Assembly: GCA_026985515.1 (NCBI GenBank)
Contig: JALSQH010000219.1
Location: 1-7,699, forward strand
Direction: 5' to 3'
DNA: 7,699 bases
Source of the DNA: a bacterium
GTDB taxonomy: Bacteria > JALSQH01
The notes under the pieces are model-generated. The model ran no database searches, was not told the DNA's origin, and saw only the letters and a program-made list of their open reading frames with translations. This document shows positions 1 to 2,689 of the stretch, in pieces (within the stretch, counting starts at the first letter, position 1; the number at the start of each line of letters is the position of its first letter). The translations under genes were made by a program, and so were the position numbers.

Positions 1-2689
1 CCTGACTGAGGGAATCACCCATGACAATTCTGGGCATTCTCATTTCAAGTTTCATCTGGAGAAAGGTTGAGAGAATCATTGGAATCAGGTTTGAAAACTG
101 ATCCTTTAAAATTTTTGTGTCAACATCTATCTCACTTTCAACTACCTCAACGGTGGAAATACCAAGGCTGTAAGCAAGATCCGGATTGTTCAGCTCAGCA
201 TAAATCATCAAATATCCTGGAATATACGCGGGGTCGTTTGGGTCAGTACATCTTGAAGTTCCATATGCAGGATCATCTGGATGACAACCCTTGTAAAACT
301 CAACATCAATTCCAGCAAGTAAATTCCACCTTAATGTCATGATTCTCTTGTACACCCCATTTTTATCCTGGAACCAGAATTCAAAATCAACTGCGGGAAA
401 ATACATGGCAATATCGTAAGTACCTGAGCCTCCCTCACCTACAGAACCTGCGGAATTATCATAATTGAAATATCCTGTTAACGCCGTTGGTGTACCTCTC
501 GGAACTGTTCTTATAGCCACATATGAATTGTCCTTTGCTATGCTCTTCAGTACAGGGATAAATGAAGCAAATGTATCCACATTTAACAGATTCTTTAAAT
601 ATGTCCCACTTAACAGCGCACTTCCACCAATTGACTCTGTGGCTGAAACCGCAAAATCAAGCATGCCAGAAGCATACATTGAATAGAGTGCCTGACGGAT
701 AAAGTTGTAATGAATATCAAGCGATAATGAATACCTTGTACAATTCGGATTGTTATCATCTATTCCATCATTATTACTATCTGTGAAAGATGAATCGGAA
801 CAGGTCCCGTCATCCTGAATACCATTGTGATTGGCATCATATAGAACTGTGTTAAAATTACCCCACGCATTCTTGTTAGTCCCGGTATATGTGATTGGTT
901 GTATCGTATCAAGGGTGGGCGGTTTAACCTGAGTGGGTGGTGCATTGGCTTTATACACGAGAGGTGGTCCAAAGTAATCAGGTCCATAGCCATCATTCAT
1001 GTCAAACTGTTGATCATCATCAATGGAACCATCATAATTATGAAGTGTACAGATACCGAAGAAATCTGTGGGTTCCGGATTATTCAGATCAGGATCCCTT
1101 GAACAATCAGAATTAAAGAGAATGGGCTCAACTGCTATTGCAGCAGGCATAAATAAACTACAATTGGTCCATGGTGCCTTCCATTCACCAGTTGAATCAT
1201 AATAGGGTGTGACTGAATGGAGTCCTGTACTTCCGTCTTCACAAACTACTTTTGCCACTCTTGTACCATTTGAATCAGGAGAACCCGGATAGATACCTAC
1301 ATCAAGAAGACCAGTTCCTGTATTCCATGGATCACCTAAAATATTGTTCATGTCATATGGAAGACCAGATGCAAGGGCATTTTTGATGGTACTATTTAAA
1401 CTATTTCGTATGGCATCCTCCACTTTTCCTTCAATTAATCCAGATAATAAGTTAATCAACCATCCAAGATTACCACTTAAACTCAACTGAAAATTGTGAA
1501 GGTTTGCATTGGTAACCTGAATATCAAGATCCATTCCATCCGGATCATTAATGTTATTGTTACAGGAATTATTATCGTTATCAGTATCACATCCTGGATT
1601 AGGATCTGTATCACTTGAATTATCCCAGAAGAAAAATCTCAAGTACAACTCTACATCAAGAGAAGATGCAGTTGCATTACCAACATTCTCACTACCAGCG
1701 GCATGAACTCCAATCTCAATATAGAGATCAGGAACAGTTAATTTTAAATAAATTGAATTTCCAGGAATGCTACCACAAGCACTATCTCCTGCACAGAATC
1801 CAAACCCCGTAATATCAGTTCCATCCCATGTGCTGCCATCATTATAAGGTGATGCATTTGGATAATAATAGTGATTCGGAAAAGAATATCCCTTATGAGA
1901 AGAAATCAAAGTGCCAAAATCATCTCTGAACTTGGAGTAAGTAGCATTCGCATTAAAATACATGTGTGACTGATCAATATAAACAGCCTGTTCATCTCCA
2001 GGATAACAGTAATACCCATCTTTACTATCATTTCCACCAGATTCTCGAGAGCTGTTACAATACTCACATGTGTCCACAGCACAATTATCAACACCAGTAT
2101 CACAAACGCTTCCATGGCCTCCACTGTAAAACCCCCCCCTTGATTCCCAATCCCCATTAGGATAAATATATACATAATCTCCATTTCCATCTCCCTGGGG
2201 CGGATTATTCACATACCAGAAACATCGTGAATCACCATTTCTAGGAGACGACTCGCCTGTATAATTACAAGTAGCACCAGCATAGACACAATTTAAACAT
2301 GCATTATTATGTATGAGACATCTCTCATAAGGAGTTGTTCTAACAGATCCCGCATTATCTGTATCCGGATTTAATCCTGGATCAAGGAACTGCATTAGAA
2401 GTTCATAATTACAAAAATTTCCAGGTGGATCATGCCAACACTCATTATCAAGCAATCTCCCAATAAAATGAAAAGTTCCCTCTGTGATTCTTATCACCAG
2501 AGCATTGTTCAGGTTTTCATACTTTCCCCCCGAATTAAAATCATTGAGGTCAATGGAAAGATTTTTGAAACTCCTTCCCTTGAGTGGGTACTTACTCATC
2601 CAGGGGAAAAATTGAAAAGCCTGCAACGACGAAACTAACAGGACAACAAGGGAAAAATTTAAAATAAATTTTAAAACCTTCCTACCCAT
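1..2689 (-). CDS. Secreted two-barrel BPI/LBP-like (TULIP superfamily) lipid-binding protein, partial at 3' end
   Basis: The frame is open from the ATG at 2689 to the window edge (896 codons, no stop), so the C-terminus is missing. The start follows a strong ribosome binding site and its own promoter. Residues 1-24 are a signal peptide (KVLKFIL charged start, hydrophobic core, SLQA then F), so the product is exported. Segments resembling human BPI, compared from memory and in the same order, are: [11 protein letters not shown] (62-72); a strand region 313-352; [16 protein letters not shown] (406-421) with a helix to about 443; [19 protein letters not shown] (654-672) then [17 protein letters not shown] (710-719); [10 protein letters not shown] (764-773); and an amphipathic helix 860-880. 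Together these cover both barrels. A cysteine-rich insert (about 80-305), Asp/Asn loops and a long linker (444-652) are extra. It has 24 cysteines. The cysteine expected in the GWLI helix of BPI (QVCEKV) is absent. Family members bind lipids such as lipopolysaccharide or sterol esters; the ligand here is unknown. The export and coding calls are firm; the fold call is likely but needs a profile search. Confidence 0.85.
   Translation of the reverse strand, partial: [896 protein letters not shown]
749..841 (-). other. Tandem calcium-type Asp/Asn loops in the inter-barrel linker
   Basis: [12 protein letters not shown] (617-628) and [11 protein letters not shown] (637-647) have the DxNxNGxxDD / DxNxDGxxDD spacing of thrombospondin type 3 and EF-hand-like calcium loops. 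They lie just before the C-terminal barrel and are framed by Cys630 and Cys650. Calcium binding is inferred from side-chain spacing only. Confidence 0.6.
1775..2452 (-). other. Cysteine-rich insertion in the N-terminal barrel of the BPI-like protein
   Basis: Residues about 80-305 separate the first BPI-like strand from the rest of the N-barrel. The segment holds 14 of the 24 cysteines, grouped as C124, C131, C134, C141, C156 and C196, C203, C208, C211, C228, with many Gly, Asn, Asp and Tyr between them. It looks like a small disulfide-stabilised extracellular domain. I recognise no named family in it. Confidence 0.6.
2132..2139 (-). repeat. Eight-G homopolymer inside the BPI-like gene
   Basis: Eight consecutive G on the coding strand encode the end of Arg184 and Gly185-Gly186 in the cysteine-rich insert. 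The reading frame is intact with eight. Tracts of this length can slip during replication, or be misread in sequencing; either would truncate the protein after a one-base change. Confidence 0.9.

Follow-up and report, generated by a model that had tools for sequence, protein, structure and literature searches.

A distant bacterial homologue of BPI, LBP and CETP encoded at a contig end, with a putative role in lipid handling at the cell surface

The locus

The window analysed here is a 7,699-nt stretch of bacterial DNA that makes up the entire contig G000:C219. Its first third holds, on the reverse strand, an open reading frame (ORF) for an exported-type protein, hereafter the window protein, which resembles the vertebrate proteins BPI, LBP and CETP. 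The source genome (2.36 Mb in 268 contigs, 98% complete) belongs to a phylum with one further genome in the collection. The ORF is a real gene, preceded by a strong Shine-Dalgarno sequence (GGGAGGTGG, 2693-2701). It is truncated by the contig end, and residues 1-896 fall short of the full protein. A preliminary description of the locus had read a secreted protein here; the signal-peptide-like N-terminus agrees with export. The gene is cut and its relatives extend further. As set out below, the window protein is supported as a distant but real homologue of LBP/BPI/CETP across both barrels. Its features are collected in Table 1.

Table 1. Features of the window around the BPI-like gene
Feature	Position	Strand	Residues	Basis or remark
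BPI-like, putatively two-barrel (TULIP) exported protein	2..2689	-	1-896	896 codons, ATG at 2689, no stop before base 2, 3' end missing; alignments and profile model
Signal-peptide-like N-terminus	2618..2689	-	1-24	sequence
First N-barrel strand, 11 residues	2477..2509	-	61-71	hhalign, aligned to BPI PGVVVRISQKG
Cys-rich, Asn/Gly-rich N-barrel insertion, 12 Cys	1985..2449	-	81-235	common to window-type relatives, not in BPI
N-barrel end with helix	1385..1534	-	386-435	stretch matching Pfam PF01273 and LBP
C-barrel start	647..712	-	660-681	hhalign
10-residue segment	533..562	-	710-719	hhalign, aligned to 9-residue BPI segment
FPAVDFEFW	374..400	-	764-772	hhalign, aligned to BPI YPAVDVQAF
Long C-terminal helix of C-barrel before a Pro	32..103	-	863-886	hhalign; low-confidence helix in model
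Sigma-70 promoter match, TTGACA-N17-TATAAT, 12/12	2722..2750	-		upstream of BPI-like gene
Multi-transmembrane protein, 461 aa	2747..4132	-		no Pfam match; directly upstream of BPI-like gene

Homology to BPI, LBP and CETP

The window sequence by itself is no proof of homology, since its only Pfam match is LBP_BPI_CETP (PF01273) at E=0.03 over residues 386-435 and its top match in the PDB is LBP at E=0.024 over residues 394-444. The BPI family thus ranks first, at values that are sub-threshold for this protein alone. When the whole source genome was searched with the PF01273 profile, the window gene was the sole match (E=0.006).

The relatives carry the case much further. A protein from the window's own family-level lineage (G001:C42) passes the Pfam model of the second barrel, PF02886 (LBP_BPI_CETP_C), with E=6e-9 and 36.1 bits (cut-off, 23), and another (G181:C162) also exceeds this cut-off, with a match that spans model positions 40-234 and so almost its full length. 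Furthermore, an hhalign comparison of 13 bacterial members with the BPI, LBP and CETP sequences from the PDB gave a score of 91.0 (P=5.2e-11) over BPI residues 5-428, covering both barrels, while the reversed profile and 60 column shuffles reached at most 25.5. Omission of G001:C42 and two G181 proteins left a score of 47.8 (P=4e-5). The gap from the window group to BPI is closed by a chain of profiles, running from the window group to the C175-type proteins (P=5e-12), from these to the short members (P=5e-8), and from the short members to BPI (P=1e-7).

A cruder test used a hidden Markov model (HMM) built from BPI, LBP and CETP only, run against 1259 sequences. This set combined ORFs from the collected loci that reach 100 aa with the window protein and 200 shuffled versions of the latter. 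The top ten were all bacterial family members, with the window protein fifth; three of them (G001:C42, G181:C162 and G306:C31) had come to light first through PF02886 and are not independent, which does not apply to the other seven. The mixed profile A2 gave no match when run by hmmsearch on the PDB.

The five motif matches to BPI claimed in the preliminary description were all recovered by hhalign in the same register and order, including the quoted pairs LVIRITEG/VVVRISQKG and GWLINLL/GWLIQLF and the segment matching YPAVDVQAF, and its view that such agreement goes beyond chance is borne out by the control scores and the HMM ranking. Conservation across the bacterial family peaks in the barrel segments and not in the insertions. 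The C-barrel start is the most conserved region, and the PF02886 match of the relatives falls here too. By Pfam's rule the window protein stands outside LBP_BPI_CETP; it is better described as a distant homologue, one that probably functions in the manner of those members that carry lipids.

Charge and disulfide

The window protein has an isoelectric point (pI) of 4.26 and a net charge of -62, compared to 9.35 and +12 for BPI. Similarly, the barrels of all 13 bacterial members are acidic (pI 4.05-4.62; CETP, 5.58). The cationic, lipopolysaccharide (LPS)-binding N-barrel that is a trait of BPI and LBP is thus not found in the window protein. The N-barrel disulfide of BPI, which we take to be Cys135-Cys175, is also absent, as the stretch between residues 377 and 482 of the window protein, where Cys175 aligns in the hhalign alignment, contains no Cys. 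An acidic protein that lacks this disulfide is unlikely to kill, or to capture LPS, through a cationic tip, and a bactericidal, LPS-targeting form of the toxin suggested earlier is disfavoured accordingly. The best inference left is that the protein binds or transfers lipid, as CETP and PLTP do.

Relatives and their sorting tails

Of 386 diverse bacterial genomes, 20 contain a match to the family profile; they are spread over about a dozen families. The profile also matches all five genomes examined of one small phylum. Within the source genome there is a paralogue 51% identical to the window protein, and a further relative occurs in another phylum. Many complete members carry C-terminal immunoglobulin (Ig)-like domains followed by a short tail made up of a GC motif, a transmembrane (TM) helix and basic residues; the relatives of the window protein continue past the barrels into two such domains and this tail. 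Among other members are both N-terminal lipoproteins and proteins that are simply exported.

MrtX processes the MYXO-CTERM-tailed proteins of Myxococcus so that they are displayed on the surface (PMC11980579). The source genome has a MrtX-like gene, which scores 102 bits where the cut-off is 180; of the 11 carrier genomes tested, 9 gave clear MrtX-like matches. The second BPI-like proteins of two genera (L085:2090-5218 and L086:1747-5073, reverse strand) end four residues past an FFGC motif, with the C-termini FFGCVQVP and FFGCETLP, so that the Cys motif lies at the extreme end; no TM tail follows it in any frame.

Neighbouring propeller lipoproteins

Lipoprotein genes lie downstream of the BPI-like gene in many relatives, on the same strand and usually no more than about 230 bp away. 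Their products are of two main kinds: LP1 lipoproteins of about 400-500 aa with BNR-type propeller repeats, and LP2 lipoproteins of 900-1100 aa, which combine PKD domains with weak repeats of the LVIVD type. In G306, G168, G289 and G151 a pair of BPI-like genes encloses one or two LP1 genes (six clusters in total); in G289, and by homology in G151, the second of the pair is followed by a TMEM260-like, mannosyltransferase-type gene. Such frequent company with propeller lipoproteins points to an undescribed surface system for lipid handling. LP1 matches that are near full-length and score above 250 bits are confined to genomes with BPI-like genes, but they are mostly the profile's own seeds, and exclusive co-occurrence is not claimed because shorter repeat matches are found in many genomes without BPI-like genes.

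The two genomes of the window's phylum each have an LP1-type gene right before a RadA-like gene (L112:6133-7266 and L113:1192-2364), and that of G001 has no BPI-like gene beside it. Contig C231, where a lipoprotein gene runs off the end, was considered as the downstream neighbour of the window gene, which itself lies past the end of C219. This is unsupported, because its G001 counterpart has another upstream gene and no BPI-like gene, and because the contig ends have no common sequence.

Upstream genes and origin of the contig

A perfect sigma-70 consensus stands just before the BPI-like gene, although the upstream genes are packed like an operon. The multi-TM protein encoded directly upstream is homologous to L006:7323-8657 (32% identity, E=5e-43), which likewise has no Pfam match and lies on contig C172, two genes away from a BPI-like fragment; each of these two proteins is therefore encoded near a window-type BPI-like gene in the source genome. 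The fragment encodes a BPI-like N-terminus and lies at the C172 contig end (L006:9439-9834). It may form one gene with a BPI-like gene that ends contig C262 and lacks its N-terminal part (L005:12637-15456); the two contig ends have no common sequence. Farther upstream in the window, a TPR protein (6727-7500, reverse strand) resembles TatT, the T component of TRAP transporters, and weakly matches the sterol-transport protein BstC (E=4e-11, far below cut-off). A gene for a putative 606-aa lipoprotein with TPR (4904-6724) comes after it.

Eukaryotic contamination of the contig was ruled out by bacterial neighbours, among them ThiD above its NCBIfam cut-off. A phage or plasmid gene was also ruled out: there was no PHROGs match, no relative among viral contigs and no plasmid match.

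Proposed function and alternatives

We somewhat favour the reading that the window protein is an exported, distant LBP/BPI/CETP homologue whose tandem TULIP barrels, with family-specific insertions, form a surface-held lipid carrier with a propeller-lipoprotein partner. The signal peptide would take the protein across the inner membrane, and a myxosortase-like intramembrane protease could then process the tail, leaving the protein anchored on the outer membrane or cell surface through a lipidated cysteine. The Ig-like domains may serve as a stalk. The two barrels would bind the acyl chains of a lipid or other hydrophobic ligand, shuttling or buffering it at the cell surface, and the propeller-type lipoprotein from the adjacent gene would be the partner. 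Lipid binding is proposed because LBP/BPI/CETP and other TULIPs are known to bind lipids (PMC5507252). The lipid shuttle among the earlier functional guesses stays open, and the best guess at present is a lipid carrier held at the surface.

Several observations weigh against this reading. Taken alone, the window protein is below every curated cut-off (PF01273, 14.4 bits against 28.8; no PF02886 match), and the window group alone scores 28.9 against BPI, LBP and CETP (P=0.014), little above its own controls (about 21). An AlphaFold2 model made from two sequences only has a mean predicted confidence (pLDDT) of 30 for the whole protein and 37 for the C-barrel. A Foldseek search with the C-barrel model placed human BPI (1ewf) first among 350,542 chains, with E=0.09 and a TM-score of 0.18, which proves nothing. 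Of the full two-barrel BPI layout given in the preliminary description, homology over both barrels thus stands at the level of sequence, from which we infer a two-barrel fold. The tails of the relatives look MYXO-CTERM-like to script and eye, yet they fall below the NCBIfam MYXO-CTERM model, and the MrtX-like genes fall below the MrtX cut-off in a setting where CPBP proteases are common. Moreover, relatives in G211, G341 and G070 have no lipoprotein gene behind the BPI-like gene, and one LP1 gene in G001 lies apart from any BPI-like gene.

The chief competitor to a lipid carrier is a surface two-barrel protein with a structural, adhesive or receptor-like role, displaying its Cys-rich insertion or binding a partner, in which lipid binding is secondary or lost. 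The large Cys-rich and Asn-rich insertions of the window type suit such a role, as do the Ig-like domains of the relatives and their propeller-type partner lipoproteins, features that are all common in adhesion and recognition, and it is conceivable for a TULIP to lose lipid transfer. However, the barrel segments and not the insertions are best conserved, and we consider this role a serious but rather unlikely possibility. Lipid trafficking within the periplasm, between membranes or in the delivery of envelope-made or envelope-modified lipids or glycolipids, would need no exposed role. It would fit the TatT/BstC-like TPR gene and the multi-TM protein gene just upstream, and the TMEM260-like gene of G289 and G151, but the upstream genes are not kept around the other family members examined and the MYXO-CTERM-like tails suggest surface display, so that it appears improbable.

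More doubtful still is a bactericidal or LPS-binding effector that acts, like human BPI, on other Gram-negative bacteria in antagonism or predation. Homology to BPI and LBP together with export speaks for it; the opposite charge, shared by 13 of 13 members, and the absent disulfide speak against it, and the anchoring tails or lipoboxes of the relatives suit a protein retained on its own cell. That there is no BPI homology, and only chance resemblance in a long, biased sequence, is hardly credible. The weak single-sequence matches and the borderline result of the window group alone would allow it, but chance or compositional resemblance is ruled out by the reversed, column-shuffled and shuffled-sequence controls, the vertebrate-only HMM places the window protein in its top ten, and relatives exceed the Pfam cut-off.

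Comparison with known families

BPI-type two-barrel proteins are customarily regarded as eukaryotic, and arguments that TULIPs arose in bacteria have so far drawn on very weak similarity. With relatives above the family's own Pfam cut-off and the family in about 5% of sampled genomes, the question of origin becomes directly testable, and the propeller lipoproteins that repeatedly accompany the BPI-like genes make up, together with them, a concrete candidate for a lipid-handling system of the bacterial cell surface. No description of this bacterial family was found in open papers, a search that excludes most subscription journals. More speculatively, and with less confidence than in the lipid-carrier reading, these proteins could belong to an undescribed surface module, sparse but spread over many lineages, in which two-barrel proteins of the BPI type, frequently present as a pair in each cluster and sorted by MYXO-CTERM-like tails, work with propeller lipoproteins whose genes lie between or behind theirs, and from which vertebrate BPI/LBP/CETP descended or with which they share a direct ancestor.

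Among bacterial TULIPs the closest parallel in layout is DUF4403 (PF14356), a full-length pseudodimeric TULIP described in 2019 (PMC6791001), which is likewise bacterial and predicted to have two TULIP domains in tandem; that paper describes no sorting tail or propeller lipoprotein association. Membership was ruled out, with no match to its Pfam profile in the window protein, none in the source genome, and an hhalign P of about 0.4 against two DUF4403 sequences. The preliminary description's view of a bacterial two-barrel TULIP as unusual is qualified by DUF4403, as the arrangement is not wholly new. YceB/DUF1439, P47/OrfX2, DUF2140 and DUF2993 belong to the same superfamily and are single-domain or otherwise arranged (PMC6791001, PMC5507252); none of them matched the window protein in the Pfam search. 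With the MYXO-CTERM/MrtX system (PMC11980579) the relatives share the GC motif, TM helix and basic end, and the genome a MrtX-like protease, whereas both tails and protease are below curated cut-offs and the window gene is cut before its C-terminus.

Compared with LBP/BPI/CETP (PF01273 and PF02886), the window family is bacterial and acidic, lacks a Cys at the BPI disulfide, has long Cys/Asn-rich insertions, adds Ig-like domains and a sorting tail in the relatives, and includes a window protein below the Pfam cut-off. What the two have in common is a series of conserved segments in the same order over both barrels, detectable by profile in either direction.
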